Virus record (IMG/VR): IMGVR_UViG_3300025086_000288
Location: 1 to 22,048 of that record
DNA from: a virus
Strand: one strand, 5' to 3'
Length of the DNA: 22,048 bases
Each line of letters begins with the position of its first letter. The stretch's first letter is position 1. The position numbers and the translations under genes are program-made. The notes under the pieces were generated by a model that did no database searches, was not told the origin of the DNA, and saw only the letters and a list, made by a program, of their open reading frames with translations. This document shows, in pieces, positions 1,498-18,326 of this stretch.

Positions 1498-2076
1498 TTA
1501 TTTTTCTTTTACTATTATTTCTATATTTATATCTTTTAACATTATGTCTAATTCACTTTCTAAGTCTTTACTAAATGCTGTAGCAATTACATTTTCGTCT
1601 ACTTCTTCTTTAAAAGGTTTGCTAAAAAACTGAGTTCTTTCTAAACCCCTTTGTGCTATTGCCCTACCTATTACAAATGAAGCACTTTCTATATTTGCTT
1701 TTGTCTTAGCTAAAAACCTACCATCAGAACCTCTTAACTTTAAAGGTTTGTTTTTAATCCATTTAGCTACAACACCTTTTTTAATGTTATTCTTTTTAAA
1801 TCTAAACGGACTTCCTTTACCTCTTGCACGTCCACTACCTTTAAAACCTCCTGATCCCTTTACACCTTCATCAACAAATTGCCAATACTTTTTAGCTTTA
1901 CCAAAAACAAACTCTAACTCAACCCCTGTTTTACTTTTATTAACATTATAGTTAAATCCTTTTTCTAATCCTGCACTTTTAGTCCTTTTCTTTTTTTTCT
2001 TTAGAATACGTTTTCCTTTACGTACTACGTCAAAACCCATGCTTTGCATTGCTTGTATTGTGTTAGTAAAGTCCAT
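1498..2076 (-). CDS. Neck / head-tail joining protein, HK97 gp10-like
   Basis: A 192-residue, very basic protein. A Lys/Arg cluster at residues 20-33 is followed by a 'KYWQFVDEGVKGSGG' segment near residues 63-77 and a Gly/Lys/Arg-rich 'SGRARGKGSPF' stretch. The 'FVDEGVxG' core followed by 'AKWI' and a later 'FVIGRAIAQRG' is the pattern of small neck or tail-completion proteins (HK97 gp10 type). It shares one base with the stop of the preceding gene and is followed by the large tail protein, the usual place for a joining protein. The family call is by pattern; a basic DNA-contacting role in the neck is inference. Confidence 0.55.
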   Translation of the reverse strand: MDFTNTIQAMQSMGFDVVRKGKRILKKKKKRTKSAGLEKGFNYNVNKSKTGVELEFVFGKAKKYWQFVDEGVKGSGGFKGSGRARGKGSPFRFKKNNIKKGVVAKWIKNKPLKLRGSDGRFLAKTKANIESASFVIGRAIAQRGLERTQFFSKPFKEEVDENVIATAFSKDLESELDIMLKDINIEIIVKEK

Positions 2077-2567
2077 TAGCTATTTGGTGTTATTGGTGCT
2101 ATACATAGATTGTTAGGGTTATTAACATCAACATTAATAGTTGCAGACCATCCTGTTAGTATGTTATCAAAACGTGCTGTAAACGGCTCTGCTGAAATAG
2201 GAAGCTCTAAAACAACTTCATCATCAACCCAAGATGTAGAATATAAAGCGTGTTTAAATTCATTGATTACATCATGCAGTATTTGTAGATTCTCAGAATA
2301 AGTATCAATACGCCCTAGTCTTTGCTTATTAGGTGCATCACCTACTTCATCATTAATCATGTCTAAGACATATACTGTAAAAGAATAAGTCATAACGCCT
2401 GAATCAATAGTTACATTTCCAGGTTCTGCATACAGTATAACATAATCAGTAGCACCAAGTTTATTAATGTCTACTTCATCAAGTTCACCACTGTGAAAGC
2501 TGTTTATCATTAGATGCTTGTCTGCAATGGTTTCTAAAAATCCGACTACGTTTCTAAAAGTTATCAT
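2076..2567 (-). CDS. Tail terminator-like protein
   Basis: A 163-residue acidic protein with no membrane segment. The pattern 'SFHSGELDEVD' (residues 23-33), 'TDYVILYAEPG' (40-50), then 'SFTVYVLDMIND' and a late 'SENLQILHDVINEF' is one I associate with a small conserved protein between neck and tail chaperone genes in Bacteroidetes phages, analogous to the tail terminator that caps the tube and joins it to the head. It overlaps the upstream chaperone extension by 14 bases and the downstream neck gene by one, so it is tightly coupled within the tail operon. A head-tail adaptor role would fit equally well. Confidence 0.5.
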   Translation of the reverse strand: MITFRNVVGFLETIADKHLMINSFHSGELDEVDINKLGATDYVILYAEPGNVTIDSGVMTYSFTVYVLDMINDEVGDAPNKQRLGRIDTYSENLQILHDVINEFKHALYSTSWVDDEVVLELPISAEPFTARFDNILTGWSATINVDVNNPNNLCIAPITPNS

Positions 2568-2805
2568 AATTGTTACGTTGTTTATTGCTGTAATCCTGTT
2601 TAAAAGATAAAAATGTTAATACCTCCATTACAGGGAGTTCTGTTATTTTATTTATGTTAAGTATGTTGTCTCCACATAAAACATATAGAGTATTATACCA
2701 ACCCCACTTACTGTTCATTGTTACGCTTTTTGTGGTTTCTTTTCCTGTGCTTTCAAATAGCTGTGCGAACTGTGTGCTAATTGTTCGCCTAAAGTCAAAA
2801 AAAAA
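2554..2805 (-). CDS. -1 frame extension of the tail assembly chaperone (gpGT-like)
   Basis: This reading frame is -1 relative to the chaperone gene and stays open for 80-odd codons past the T9 run at 2797-2805. It has an ATG only far upstream inside the chaperone gene (2838) and another at 2718, two bases after the chaperone stop. Its last 54 residues, starting MNSKWGWYNTLYVL, contain 'KWGWYNTLY', 'ITELPVMEVLTFLSF' and a charged tail, and look like real protein. A -1 slip on the T run would fuse residues 1-168 of the chaperone to 81 residues of this frame, giving a 249-residue product, the counterpart of lambda gpGT. Independent translation from 2718 as a 54-residue protein is the alternative. 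Confidence 0.65.
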   Translation of the reverse strand, partial: FFFDFRRTISTQFAQLFESTGKETTKSVTMNSKWGWYNTLYVLCGDNILNINKITELPVMEVLTFLSFKQDYSNKQRNNYDNF

Positions 2806-3302
2806 CCTAAGCAACATAACGCTATATCCATTGGACAACCCTTAAATAAATCTTCTTTAAATTCATCAGGATCATAATTTTCAATAGCATATTTATTACC
2901 ACTCTTAAACGTTATTTTTCTATATAGTATTGACATAATAATATGCAAGTTCTTTATTGGTTCTTTACAGTATTCTTCTAAGTCTATATATTCTCCTGTT
3001 GTAAGTTTACTTAAATTAGGAATAAACCCATACTGTTCGCCGTTAAACTCAAACCTTTTTCTAAACTTAGTCTTATCAGGTTCAGCATCAATCATCTTTT
3101 TTATTACGCCAATAATATCAATCATATCTTTATATTCCATCTGCTTCACTATATTAGGTTTTACTTCACATAACAAAGACAGTATTTTAATTGCTTTGTT
3201 TTTATCACTCCCTTTTGCTTCTTGTATCTCAACGTATCTCTGATATTTTTGTATTGTTATATCACACCATTCTGAAGGAATACTAAGCTTAATCTCTTTC
3301 AT
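2721..3302 (-). CDS. Tail assembly chaperone (gpG-like)
   Basis: A 193-residue cytoplasmic protein. It opens 'KLSIPSEWCDITIQKYQRY' (residues 5-23) and carries 'YGFIPNLSKLTTGEYIDLEEY' between about residues 92 and 112, followed by 'LYRKITFKSGNKYAI'. This is the pattern I associate with Bacteroidetes-phage tail chaperones, which hold tape measure and tube subunits during tail assembly. Its last 26 codons overlap a -1 frame ORF, and codons 167-169 lie in a T9 run followed by a stem-loop, so the gene probably makes a normal and a frameshifted product. It starts 4 nt downstream of a candidate promoter element (3307-3334) and leads the tail block. The T run could also be an assembly error. Confidence 0.65.
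   Translation of the reverse strand: MKEIKLSIPSEWCDITIQKYQRYVEIQEAKGSDKNKAIKILSLLCEVKPNIVKQMEYKDMIDIIGVIKKMIDAEPDKTKFRKRFEFNGEQYGFIPNLSKLTTGEYIDLEEYCKEPIKNLHIIMSILYRKITFKSGNKYAIENYDPDEFKEDLFKGCPMDIALCCLGFFLTLGEQLAHSSHSYLKAQEKKPQKA
2765..2805 (-). other. Predicted programmed -1 ribosomal frameshift signal
   Basis: On the minus strand, nine T residues (2805-2797) are read as TTT TTT TTG in the chaperone frame and as TTT TTT TTT in the -1 frame, so a T-TTT-TTT heptamer satisfies the slippery rule. After an 8-nt spacer (2796-2789) there is a perfect 6-bp inverted repeat, GCGAAC (2788-2783) and GTTCGC (2770-2765), with a 12-nt loop. Slippery heptamer, short spacer and stem-loop together form the standard -1 signal, and tail chaperone genes are the best-known phage users of it. 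Frameshifting itself is inferred. Confidence 0.65.
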
Positions 3303-3306
3303 TACA

Positions 3307-3334
3307 TATAAATATAAAAGTTTATAATTCGTTT
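3307..3334 (-). promoter_or_regulatory. Candidate phage promoter, bipartite motif copy 1
   Basis: Read on the minus strand, the sequence is AAAC, 13 nt, then TTATATTTATA, ending 4 nt before the ATG of the tail chaperone. The same two boxes with the same 13-nt spacing occur at 19064-19091 and 21488-21515. The upstream box lies inside the 3' end of the methyltransferase gene. If it is a promoter, the transcript would be leaderless or nearly so, which Bacteroidetes tolerate. Confidence 0.45.
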
Positions 3335-4098
3335 TTTATTCTTTGTTCTGCTATTTCACAATACTCTTTACTAATCTCACTACCTATAAAATTTCTATTG
3401 TTTTTTAAACACATTTTAGCGGTTGTACCACTTCCCATAAAGCAATCATAAACTAAATCTCTTTCATTCGTCCAACTAACGATATGATCATTTACTAATT
3501 GTTCTGGAAAAATTGCGGGGTGTCCTTTTATTTTGTCAAATCCAACCTTATATGTCCATATGTTATTTCGTGGGCTGTATTTTGGGGTTATTTTATTTTT
3601 ATTTTCTTGTTGTATTTTTTCACCTTCTTTATTGTAGTAACTGTATTTTCCATACCTAGATAGTTCTCCTGCGGTTTTATTCTTTTTGTCACAAATTAAG
3701 TTTGCTGTTTTAATTTTGTCTTTACAAAAAACAAACATATATTCAAAAATTTGTGTATATCTGTTTCCATTTCTTCTAGCAGGGAATGATGAAGTATGCT
3801 TTTGATATATTATTGTGTCGTGCAATTTAAATCCGCACTCTTTAAAATATAGTGCTTGTTTAAAACTTGTTCCTGTTTCACTACCTTTAATTGTAGCATC
3901 ACCAACAACCCATACAACAACACCACCCTGTTTTGTTACCCTATATAATTCTTTTGCTATATTTTCAAATTCAAAACTATAACCCTTGTATGTTCTTAAA
4001 TTGTCATAAGGGGGTGAGGTTACAGTTAAGTCTATAAAATTATCTTGCATTTTTGACATTGTGTCTAAGCAATTTTCGTTGTGTATTTTATTTATCAT
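3322..4098 (-). CDS. DNA methyltransferase, N6-adenine/N4-cytosine type (beta order)
   Basis: A 258-residue S-adenosylmethionine-dependent DNA methyltransferase. The catalytic motif TSPPYD is at residues 27-32 and the cofactor motif DCFMGSGTT at 218-226, preceded by 'HPAIFPEQL' (193-201). Catalytic motif before cofactor motif is the beta arrangement, with the target-recognition region between them (about 100-190). SPPY is commonest in N4-cytosine enzymes but also occurs in N6-adenine enzymes, so the modified base is not settled. It overlaps the terminase large subunit gene by 4 bp (ATGA), and no restriction endonuclease is adjacent, so it probably protects phage DNA from host restriction or marks it for another purpose. 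Confidence 0.88.
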   Translation of the reverse strand: MINKIHNENCLDTMSKMQDNFIDLTVTSPPYDNLRTYKGYSFEFENIAKELYRVTKQGGVVVWVVGDATIKGSETGTSFKQALYFKECGFKLHDTIIYQKHTSSFPARRNGNRYTQIFEYMFVFCKDKIKTANLICDKKNKTAGELSRYGKYSYYNKEGEKIQQENKNKITPKYSPRNNIWTYKVGFDKIKGHPAIFPEQLVNDHIVSWTNERDLVYDCFMGSGTTAKMCLKNNRNFIGSEISKEYCEIAEQRIKNEL

Positions 4099-5252
4099 AA
4101 TATATAGTATTTGCCACTGTGATTTATTGATAGTTTATTTAAACATAGATACCGCGTTGCGTCAATTAGATGGTCATTAACTTTAACAGGAGTATTTAAA
4201 ACATCACCATTCTTGTCTGTTGCCCATTTATAACCTCTAAATTCTTTTATTGCATTTAAGCTATCTTTTGTTATATGCAGTTTATATCTACGCATTATAT
4301 CAATACCTAGATGTATTCCTGCACCTTTCTTAGCAGGTTTTATATTGAACCCCTGCCTGTATACTTCTTCTATTGATTTAGGTTCTGCAGAATCAGCGAC
4401 AATTTCTGATTGTCTATCTATCCTAAACTCTTTTAGTTTATTTGCCAAATCTCTATTAGTTAATCTCTTTTCATATAGCATCTCTTTAATGTATAAGTTA
4501 TCATCAGATTGATATACAGCAACTAAAGCAGAAGGTGAATTAGTAAATCCAAAGTCTAAGCCATAACCTATTAACCTACCTTGAACATCATCTACTAATT
4601 CAAACTTTCTAAATATCATTGTTTGAACAGAACCAATTTCTCCAAGTCCATACACCTGCCAATAATCAGGATCAAGTTCTCTTAGTCTTTCAATCTCTGC
4701 AATAGTATCTTTATCCAAAAAAGGGTTTGCTTTATATGTTGATTTAATAAAAGTACAATCATCTCTAACTACTACTTTATCATATATCCAGGAATAAGGA
4801 TCAGAAGGATTATAGTCTAAATAGATTTTGTCTGTAGTTCTAAGTATAAGCTGTTGCCAATCTTCATAAGTAAACTCATTAGCTTCATTAAGCCATAAAT
4901 AATCACGTTTACGCCCTCTAATCTTTTGTGGTTGATCAACACTTATAAACTCTATTAGGTTGCCATTTAAGGCATAAGACAGTTCTGATTTATTATGATT
5001 TTCTTCTTTATATAATTCTAGTTCTTTGAGTATATTAAGGACATCACGATATGCTGTTCCTTTAAGTGCAGGGAGTGTTTTTCTGCATATAGTAAATACT
5101 TTGCCTGTTTCTTCTAAGCATTTAACAATAAACAACTGACACAGCGAATAAGTCTTGCTAGAACGAGTACCCCCCTGTAAGCACGTTATTCTAGTTTCTG
5201 ACCTATACGCTTTGTGAAAGACATTTGTTGTATTAATCTTTGCCTGTGTCAA
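4095..5252 (-). CDS. terL: Terminase large subunit (packaging ATPase/nuclease)
   Basis: The 385-residue motor protein pumps DNA into the prohead and cuts concatemers. The N-terminal ATPase has Walker A 'GGTRSSKT' (27-34), Walker B 'YLWLNEAN' (118-125, with E123 as likely catalytic Glu) and a coupling-type segment 'STYKANPFL' (171-179). The C-terminal RNase H-like nuclease has 'GLDFG' (D233), 'ADSAEP' (D287) and 'NDHLIDATRY' (D364), the expected acidic triad. Length is slightly short but complete. It overlaps the small subunit gene by 20 bp and the downstream methyltransferase by 4 bp. The terminase sits far from the portal and capsid genes, on the other side of the lysis and replication modules. 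Confidence 0.93.
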   Translation of the reverse strand: MTQAKINTTNVFHKAYRSETRITCLQGGTRSSKTYSLCQLFIVKCLEETGKVFTICRKTLPALKGTAYRDVLNILKELELYKEENHNKSELSYALNGNLIEFISVDQPQKIRGRKRDYLWLNEANEFTYEDWQQLILRTTDKIYLDYNPSDPYSWIYDKVVVRDDCTFIKSTYKANPFLDKDTIAEIERLRELDPDYWQVYGLGEIGSVQTMIFRKFELVDDVQGRLIGYGLDFGFTNSPSALVAVYQSDDNLYIKEMLYEKRLTNRDLANKLKEFRIDRQSEIVADSAEPKSIEEVYRQGFNIKPAKKGAGIHLGIDIMRRYKLHITKDSLNAIKEFRGYKWATDKNGDVLNTPVKVNDHLIDATRYLCLNKLSINHSGKYYIL

Positions 5253-15890: not shown

Positions 15891-18326
15891 TTATTTTACT
15901 CCTGGATAGTGTCCCTCATTAGGCATATTTACAGGTGCTATTACTGCGTCTTTTATTCCTCTTGGTGTTGGTGTATACGTTTTAGGTATACTATTTACTT
16001 TATTATAATCATCTAAGCCTTGACCATCTTTTAATTCTGTTCCTTCTTTTAATCTATATAAGATTACTTTCCAGGCGTGTCTACAATATACACCGCCTTT
16101 AAATTTAAATAGATCATAAGCACGTCCTTTATGTCCTAGTTGTTTATTAACTCCTTCACGACTAGCTTTGTCAATATCTTCAATCCTATATACAAAACCT
16201 GCTCTTGCTAAAGACATCATATTTTTACAAAATGTTCTAGTTGACTTACTTGGTTTTCTACTCTTTTTAATATATTTAAATCTCACTCTGTAGTATGATT
16301 TATCTAAGTAACTAAAAGAATCTTCTTTGCTTACTATTTCATCTGCAAACTTTTCTTTATCTAGTTTTTCAATTAAAGCATCCGCCCATTCTTCATAATC
16401 TTCAATATGTCCTTCGTCCTGTTCATCTACAATTTCCCACTTGTCTAAGTCTATTTGCTCACCTTTTAAAGCGTTAAATACACCATCAAATTCTTCATCA
16501 GATAAATCAGCTCTGACGCCTTCTATTTCTTTAACTTTCTTTTTTGCCCAAGATTGACCTGCATCACCACCCCATAATGCCCAAGCTATACGCCCTGCAC
16601 TAGGGAATCCATCTTCACCTGGTTTAAAACCCTCTGCTTTTTTATCTACTTCATGCCTAGCAAAAAAACTGTTCATTCTACTAATAGTATCTAGTGATAA
16701 ATCACCATTAATTATAGACCTTGCTCTAGCAACTGCAACCTGTGTGCCACCACGTCCATACTCTTTACGCCATTCTAAACCCTTTTTAGCTTCTTCAATC
16801 ATACCCTCTGTAGGTGAAGTGTCAATATCTTTTAAATCTTTAAACTTCTTTTGGTTTCTATTTTTTTTTTTACTTATCTCTTCAGATAATTTTTCTACTG
16901 CATCACCTGTATCAGCAAAGAACCCTTTAGCTACAGCAGGGGGCAACTGTAAAAACTGTATTAAAAATACTGTTGCCTGTTCTTTTGTTAATATACCTTC
17001 CTGTACTTTTGCAATAATATCAATAGCACTACTAATCTGAGCACCATTATAAGATGCTTCACTTTCTAAAGGTTCTTCCATAGCTGAATCAGTTTCTTCT
17101 GTTTCTTCTTGTACCGCTTCAGGTGTATCTGCATCAACATCTTCTTTTGAAACATCTTCTTTTGAAACACCTTCTTTTTCTTGATCTTCTTCTGATTGTG
17201 TTTTTGTAACTTCAAGATCAATGAAATCAGCAGGTTTAAGCGATTCAAAGTACAAGTCTAGATTTATATTGTTAACTGCAAATATCTTTTCTAAGCCTTT
17301 TAAAAGTATATTCTGAAAAGGAATAATAACAGTATTGTTAAATAAGCTATACGCATCTCTTAATTCATCTGCGTTATTACCTAGACCACCACCTTCTGCA
17401 CGTATTCCAAAGAGTATCGGTGATGTTACTCTATGACCTGCTAGTATTTGTGATACAGCTTGTTTAGACATACCCTCCCATGCACTCTGTGCATCATTCA
17501 TTTGTATTGGTTCTATGATAGGTTGTGTATCTTTACCATCATTAAATGTGATAAGTATTTTACCTGCGTTACCACTACCTGAAAACTTTTGGTTTAATTG
17601 TCTTTCTATAGTACGTCTTTCTTCTTCTGTAGGTACGCCGTTACTAAAACCAACGTGCATTGAAGGTGTCATACCTGAAGTTATATTAGATAAATGAAAT
17701 TGAGCTATCTCTAACTCCATTTGAATCCAATCCGTTGCAGCTACGTAATCAGGTGCAAAGCCATAAAATAAAGCAGGGTTTTTATCTCTAATCATTAAGA
17801 TTTGACTTGCTTGTGTTCTGTCTTTAGTATTAAACGCTTTATATGGTCTTGGTTTATATTCTCCTTTTTTAGCTTTAGACCAATCAGCAGAGTAATAATA
17901 GTTCTCAACTTCACCATCTACCATTTTACCTGAACGTATATATTGTGCAGGTATATGTATCATCTTAGCTATTTTAGTTCTATCTCTTGACCATATTACG
18001 TTTACATAACACCCACCGAATAGCTTTAAATCCATTGCTAAGTCTTTTAAGACATCTTCACCTGAATTGTGTAATAATTCATTTAAACGTAAATATGATT
18101 CTTTAGTGTCTGTATTATCATCAACATTAGTTGCACTTAAACCTTCACCATAAATCATTGCACCTATTGACTTAATTAAAGCACCATTGATAGCACTTCC
18201 TAAGAATAAGTCTAGCAAATAATTAGGGTATAGATTATCTTCACCAAAACTAACCCAGTCATGTCTTGGATCTTCTACTAAGTGAGGTATGTTATAATGT
18301 GATAATTTAATTAAATCTAAATTCAT
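15891..18326 (-). CDS. Portal protein with long C-terminal multi-domain extension
   Basis: An 811-residue protein. Residues 1-370 are a portal: 'WVSFGEDNLYPNYLLDLF' (24-41), 'LAMDLKLFGGCYVNV' (96-110), and 'SQILAGHRVTSPILFGIRAEGG' across 292-313. After an acidic linker (375-425) with a duplicated VSKED, three further segments follow: 'NGAQISSAIDIIAKVQEGIL' (427-446), a domain with 'YGRGGTQVAVARARSI' (523-538), 'FFARHEVDKK' and 'SAGRIAWALWGGDAGQSWA' (576-594), and a C-terminal region with 'TFCKNMMSLARAGFVYRIED' (698-717) and 'FKGGVYCRHAW' (742-752). These extra domains are usually met on phage head proteases or morphogenesis proteins. A typical portal is about half this length. Fusion or proteolytic processing is possible. 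Confidence 0.8.
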   Translation of the reverse strand: MNLDLIKLSHYNIPHLVEDPRHDWVSFGEDNLYPNYLLDLFLGSAINGALIKSIGAMIYGEGLSATNVDDNTDTKESYLRLNELLHNSGEDVLKDLAMDLKLFGGCYVNVIWSRDRTKIAKMIHIPAQYIRSGKMVDGEVENYYYSADWSKAKKGEYKPRPYKAFNTKDRTQASQILMIRDKNPALFYGFAPDYVAATDWIQMELEIAQFHLSNITSGMTPSMHVGFSNGVPTEEERRTIERQLNQKFSGSGNAGKILITFNDGKDTQPIIEPIQMNDAQSAWEGMSKQAVSQILAGHRVTSPILFGIRAEGGGLGNNADELRDAYSLFNNTVIIPFQNILLKGLEKIFAVNNINLDLYFESLKPADFIDLEVTKTQSEEDQEKEGVSKEDVSKEDVDADTPEAVQEETEETDSAMEEPLESEASYNGAQISSAIDIIAKVQEGILTKEQATVFLIQFLQLPPAVAKGFFADTGDAVEKLSEEISKKKNRNQKKFKDLKDIDTSPTEGMIEEAKKGLEWRKEYGRGGTQVAVARARSIINGDLSLDTISRMNSFFARHEVDKKAEGFKPGEDGFPSAGRIAWALWGGDAGQSWAKKKVKEIEGVRADLSDEEFDGVFNALKGEQIDLDKWEIVDEQDEGHIEDYEEWADALIEKLDKEKFADEIVSKEDSFSYLDKSYYRVRFKYIKKSRKPSKSTRTFCKNMMSLARAGFVYRIEDIDKASREGVNKQLGHKGRAYDLFKFKGGVYCRHAWKVILYRLKEGTELKDGQGLDDYNKVNSIPKTYTPTPRGIKDAVIAPVNMPNEGHYPGVK
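17139..17168 (-). repeat. 15-bp perfect tandem duplication in the portal linker
   Basis: Two identical 15-bp units, 17139-17153 and 17154-17168, encode VSKED twice in the acidic linker after the portal domain. In-frame duplication in a disordered linker is expected to be tolerated and may vary in copy number between related phages. Confidence 0.85.

Follow-up and report, generated by a model that had tools for sequence, protein, structure and literature searches.

The stretch of DNA analysed here (the window; 22,048 nt, positions 1 to 22,048 of the IMG/VR virus record IMGVR_UViG_3300025086_000288) carries on its minus strand a marine phage gene with an uninterrupted run of nine T's close to the end of its short open reading frame (Table 1). 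In the zero frame this region reads GGT TTT TTT TTG ACT TTA GGC. Starting at the run, the −1 frame contains no stop until 2556-2554, and its translation looks protein-like immediately downstream of the T's; a −1 shift on T TTT TTT gives, by computed translation, a fusion of 249 residues. An 8-nt spacer, GACTTTAG, separates the run from a GCGAAC arm that pairs perfectly with a GTTCGC arm over 6 bp, enclosing a 12-nt loop. An earlier note, made from the letters of this DNA, had described a complete −1 frameshift cassette in a tail assembly chaperone gene, and its individual elements, namely the run permitting a T-TTT-TTT slip, the spacer and stem, the open −1 frame, and the 193- and 249-residue readings, are all present in the window. 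The N and C parts match phrog_32199 (4.4e-12) and phrog_38404 (0.0037), respectively, two PHROGs with no assigned function that were also matched by 26/26 and 13/20 of the family members. With respect to gene order, a terminase gene is followed by a methyltransferase gene, the T9 gene, and then a candidate HK97-gp10-like gene.

Table 1. Positions of features in the window and, in the last four lines, in relatives named by locus
Feature	Coordinates	Strand	Basis or remark
Zero-frame ORF, 193 aa (short form)	3302-2721	minus	sequence and ORF reading
phrog_32199 N-terminal domain up to FF at the run, then 25-residue zero-frame tail	within 2721..3302	minus	profile match
T9 slip run, in frame GGT TTT TTT TTG	2797..2805	minus	sequence
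In-register T TTT TTT heptamer inside the T9 run	2805-2799	minus	sequence
−1 frame extension (FDFRRTIS...KWGWYNTLY...), C-terminal domain of the 249-aa fusion, phrog_38404	2554..2799	minus	
Dual-coded overlap, run to zero-frame stop	2724..2796	minus	both frames against synonymous-shuffle nulls
Stem 5′ arm GCGAAC	2783..2788	minus	not conserved
Stem 3′ arm GTTCGC	2765..2770	minus	not conserved
−1 frame ATG, 5 nt past the first nt of the zero-frame stop, TAACAATG	2716..2718	minus	possible re-initiation start
Terminase large subunit, upstream, same direction	4095..5252	minus	phrog_2, 1.2e-45
HK97-gp10-like neck/tail protein candidate, downstream	1498..2076	minus	PF04883 E 0.011, below cut-off; phrog_29822
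750-1174-aa protein, copy in L589	2823-6347		
750-1174-aa protein, copy in L590	13982-17482		
750-1174-aa protein, copy in L591	3766-6096		
750-1174-aa protein, copy in L341	27612-29864		

Relatives of the gene were collected by protein similarity alone from IMG/VR and named phages, with the N-terminal and C-terminal parts queried separately. These searches yielded more than 300 loci, and in all of those checked the C part was offset by −1 from the frame of the N part. Among the loci obtained in this manner, the run is exactly T9 in 230 of 231 distinct 240-nt contexts and T10 in one (L203), such that the possibility raised beforehand of a run that is really 8 or 10 T's does not hold in relatives. 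Two DNA scans, in which the flanks were fixed and the middle was left free in both length and bases, gave exactly T9 at 53 of 53 distinct close-type sites and 93 of 93 distinct second-type sites among the matches listed; the remaining matches of the first (close-type) scan looked like unrelated sequence. At the run, group 1, which includes the window, reads GGT TTT TTT TTG, and group 2, which includes the Nonlabens phages P12024L and P12024S, reads NTT TTT TTT T(AT/AC/GG). The codon position at which the run starts thus differs between groups 1 and 2, and its length is nine in both. In the set of sequences selected for T9, the codon preceding FF always has T at its free third position, being GGT in 117/117 members of group 1 (GGT makes up 30% of Gly codons) and GTT in 146/146 members of group 2 (GTT makes up 39% of Val codons), and both Phe codons at the run are TTT, with TTC representing 12-27% of Phe codons upstream. 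Because this set was chosen for T9, these codon counts describe only what the conserved run overrides, and the run count (230/231) is taken from the protein-similarity loci instead.

The isolated relatives infect Nonlabens/Persicivirga, in agreement with the earlier assignment of the window to a long-tailed Bacteroidota phage. In P12024L and P12024S (Inhavirus; L036 and L037), genes 40 and 41 at 3001-3704 are annotated as two separate hypothetical proteins and correspond to the two halves of a T9-frameshifted gene, a direct homologue with the T9 run and −1 extension of the window gene, the run being moved by one codon position. Scans of genome contigs returned only three MAG contigs, two of which are true relatives and phage-like, and no further clear relative emerged when 395 genomes from the order and 395 from the phylum were searched with HMMs.

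The region beyond the run carries signs of coding in both frames. Between the run and the zero-frame stop, −1 stops are absent in 117/117 sequences of group 1 and 160/160 of group 2, as compared to a −1 stop in about 98 of the 117 and nearly all of the 160 after synonymous shuffling of frame 0. Pairwise identity in the −1 frame is 0.50 in group 1 and 0.44 in group 2 (nulls of 0.22 and 0.20), the conservation sets in with the first codons behind the run, and the +1 frame contains stops in all sequences. In a reverse test, the −1 protein was held fixed while its codons were shuffled, and frame 0 after the run was scored. Over the first eight codons past the run, frame 0 reached 0.76 in group 1 and 0.75 in group 2, versus 0.40 and 0.27 by chance, and it also avoids stops, over as many as 54 codons in group 2. 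As both frames are conserved above their nulls, sequence comparison identifies the segment from the run to the zero-frame stop as a dual-coding overlap, with the zero-frame tail also under selection. In most group 2 members the zero frame continues for about 58-91 codons, and in 156/160 it ends only after passing the WGWY motif of the −1 domain, which predicts two products with different tails of similar length. Such a zero-frame tail (for example in L224 and L251) overlaps almost the whole −1 domain, far above the average slip site-to-stop distance of 26 nt in SEA-PHAGES data (PMC10885494).

A further line of evidence comes from homologues that encode both parts in one frame. An AlphaFold2 model of the N part (pLDDT 85.7) led by structure search to Flavobacterium phage 6H, and its relatives 2A, FPSV-F7, laban6-1, Cellulophaga Ingeline_1, Polaribacter Leef_1, and Bacteroides phage BT-TP2 were found to encode a 259-301-aa protein as a single ORF in which no run of nine is present. 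A profile of the window-type fusion aligned with this one-ORF family over residues 6-247 (hhalign probability 97.2, E 3.2e-11), whereas the alignment with a profile of the zero-frame form stops at the run; the C domain alone gave a weak match (E 0.0027). This end-to-end alignment indicates that the −1 reading restores a protein that other phages make directly. One-frame homologues lacking the run had been named in the earlier note as grounds for refuting the frameshift. They do exist, in Duneviridae and others, and they instead support the fusion as a real protein. The homologues in Duneviridae, Helgolandviridae, and BT-TP2 (among them 2A, laban6-1, Ingeline, and Leef) share the domain order over the full fusion length and differ in having one continuous frame with no run of nine and hence no obvious short form. 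Duneviridae and Helgolandviridae encode the fused form only, so that not every phage of this kind would require both forms. Electron microscopy has shown Ingeline and Leef to be siphoviruses (PMC8776804). In the record of phage 6H itself (L592, KC959568; 10040-10927), the homologue is frame-broken relative to the intact single ORF in 2A and FPSV-F7, and the N part alone is annotated.

The conserved T9 run, the −1 coding in relatives, and the one-ORF homologues together lend strong support to −1 recoding at the T9 run, whether at the ribosomal or the transcriptional level, and we regard it as very probable. The shift at the T run giving a short and a fused product, as first proposed from the window, is thereby upheld by its relatives. 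The gene would give rise to two proteins with about 168 N-terminal residues in common and different C-termini. The majority of products would end in frame 0 to give the 193-aa form, and a fraction that switches into the −1 frame at the T9 (U9) run would yield the 249-aa fusion with its KWGWY-containing domain. The run itself would serve as the signal, with the hairpin being unnecessary. The making of both proteins, and their ratio, are inferred.

Other explanations of the locus fare considerably less well. Sequencing error or gene decay might be suspected given that homopolymers are error-prone and that a broken homologue occurs in the phage 6H record, but the same run is found in more than 200 distinct contigs from many samples as well as in isolated phages, and this conservation already refutes such a reading, to which we assign a negligible probability. 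The complete cassette of the earlier note, ribosomal −1 frameshifting stimulated by the GCGAAC/GTTCGC hairpin, draws on the presence of heptamer, spacer, and stem in the window, and a 57-nt piece with the stem does fold at −9 kcal/mol (z −1.65; −0.11 for a 97-nt piece). Against it, the exact stem occurs in only 3/117 group 1 and 0/160 group 2 sequences, and windows following the run are on average little more stable than shuffles (mean z −0.3 to −0.6). RNAalifold predicted no pair in a 19-sequence alignment. In the helix, 67.6% of cells were paired, compared with 68.1% after shuffling, and covariation scored lower than the mean of the shuffles. Among the hairpins tested upstream and downstream of the run, no conserved RNA structure was found, nor was there an Rfam match or a terminator-like hairpin ahead of the run. 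Of the features for which an alignment of homologues had been suggested as a check, the T-run thus proved to be conserved and the stem did not. From these comparisons the stem is evidently a local coincidence rather than a conserved part of the site, and a hairpin-stimulated cassette is very unlikely. Equally improbable is production of the C-terminal domain as a separate protein through termination and re-initiation at the ATG near the zero-frame stop. TAAnnATG-type spacing is found in 98/117 close relatives, and in the Nonlabens records the C part has a CDS annotation of its own. However, conservation of the −1 coding already begins ahead of any such start, in the codons that directly follow the run, both parts are fused in the one-ORF relatives, and in group 2 re-initiation cannot make the domain because the zero-frame stop lies past WGWY in 156/160. 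The −1 ATG spacing at 2716-2723 of the minus strand, TAACAATG, which is kept in the close relatives, is mostly absent in group 2. Re-initiation at this ATG could add a third product, the C domain alone, in group 1.

With respect to the level at which recoding at the T9 run would take place, our default is ribosomal slippage, with tandem tRNA-Phe on T TTT TTT, since every T9 holds this heptamer in register and since the frameshift of the same kind in phage lambda is ribosomal (PMC5009743). We give it about an even chance. Alternatively, RNA polymerase would add a U at the U9 run, such that part of the mRNA carries U10 and ordinary decoding leads to the fusion. Uninterrupted, conserved A or T runs of about nine or more are typical of transcriptional slippage sites, and the T9 has this form. 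Only seven T's would be required for a ribosomal heptamer, yet nine are kept in both codon phases. Stimulatory RNA structure was not found, and Citrobacter tssM demonstrates that a run alone can suffice, slippage at its A11 having been proven without stimulators (PMC4256274). In many bacterial genomes, moreover, A/T runs come under visible counter-selection once they reach nine (PMC1088944). Across 1919 other distinct ORFs of these phages, runs of at least nine are rarer than expected from within-gene codon shuffles, with 2 seen versus about 20 expected for T and 56 versus about 201 for A. Set beside this scarcity, a T9 at one and the same site in 230/231 relatives exceeds chance. By phase, the values for this avoidance are 0.43/0.43/0.34 for A9, and for T7 they are 0.38 in a phase without the heptamer and 0.61 in the phase with it. 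Avoidance of this kind, independent of ribosomal register, is as expected if the hazard is slippage of the polymerase, and it therefore makes polymerase slippage a serious rival, to which we assign a substantial probability that falls somewhat short of even; slippage of the DNA replication machinery could, however, also explain it. As the two protein frames partly force the flanking T's, the comparison, including that of synonymous freedom around the run, does not separate the two levels. That ribosomal and polymerase slippage both operate is improbable.

Homopolymeric A/T signals of about nine or more likewise give two products in Shigella mxiE/spa13, Thermus dnaX, Citrobacter tssM, and IS elements, from which the T9 phage gene differs in being known here from DNA and protein comparison, not from RNA. 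No case of transcriptional slippage in a phage tail gene was found in the literature searched. We suggest only tentatively, as a possibility well short of even, that a large family of phages of aquatic Bacteroidota makes two tail-chaperone forms by RNA polymerase slippage on an invariant T9, with two C-termini encoded in the same DNA. Elsewhere in the window, a T11 on the plus strand at 16861-16871 corresponds to an A11 within the 811-aa portal ORF (15891-18326, minus strand), where it precedes a C-terminal part matching phrog_2859. The remaining genes of these phages strongly avoid runs as long as this (2 seen, about 53 expected), which makes the A11 a candidate for a further site of slippage or for the boundary of a fusion.

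In terms of function, Pfam and solved-structure sequence searches returned nothing for either domain, hhalign against known tail chaperones gave no significant match and no sequence link to HK97 gp13, and a Foldseek search of the PDB likewise gave no significant match. In a ranking of solved structures, the HK97 chaperone 2ob9 came first, with a low Z of 3.5 (rmsd 3.8 over 69 residues), and in BFVD a viral model annotated as a tail assembly chaperone was matched at E 0.016. The C-domain model (pLDDT 66) was too uncertain for a structure search. The window ends ahead of the tape measure gene, and the position of this gene was therefore read from relatives, where a probable tape measure gene lies in the same direction about five genes downstream of the T9 gene (gene 50 of P12024L, phrog_9483 at 5.6e-12; in the nearest long relative, a 529-aa ORF judged by composition and start). 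An ORF of about 1170 aa was also considered for this role, and its composition argues against it; ORFs of 529-686 aa fit. No gene was recognised as that of the major tail protein. In the interval that separates the neck-type genes from the probable tape measure gene lies a 750-1174-aa protein with an SQTFKLP/KSFKVP-type motif near its start, for which the sole family match is phrog_38559 (function not assigned), in the group 2 and P12024L copies. By analogy with lambda gpG/gpGT, the two forms encoded by the T9 gene are probably a tail assembly chaperone pair.

As in lambda gpG/gpGT and HK97 gp13, whose fusion is annotated as a −1 frameshift product, the N-terminal domain is common to the short form and the predicted −1 fusion, and the tape measure gene belongs to the same module. 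The gene also combines, in the manner of lambda G/GT, a short ORF with a conserved −1 fusion reached through an in-register X XXY YYZ slip site near the end of the first ORF. The pure-T slip site had already been contrasted with the GGGAAAG-type site of lambda, and its retention in 230/231 relatives confirms the T9 as an invariant feature. Several genes separate the T9 gene from the probable tape measure gene downstream of it, in contrast to lambda G/GT, it has no detectable sequence relationship to the lambda and HK97 chaperones, and its dual-coded overlap, 25 codons in the window and about 58-91 in most group 2 relatives, is unlike that of either. On the basis of these comparisons, the T9 arrangement is evidently a real, deeply conserved, and new variant of the lambda G/GT arrangement.

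Frameshifted tail chaperones are textbook examples of ribosomal recoding. Here, exactly nine T's are kept across very divergent phages without a conserved stimulator, and the one-frame relatives, along with the avoidance of such runs elsewhere, would offer a clean natural test of ribosomal versus polymerase slippage in Bacteroidota. The T9 gene also suggests a role for two PHROG families with no assigned function, the C-terminal half of whose proteins is split off or missed in current annotations.
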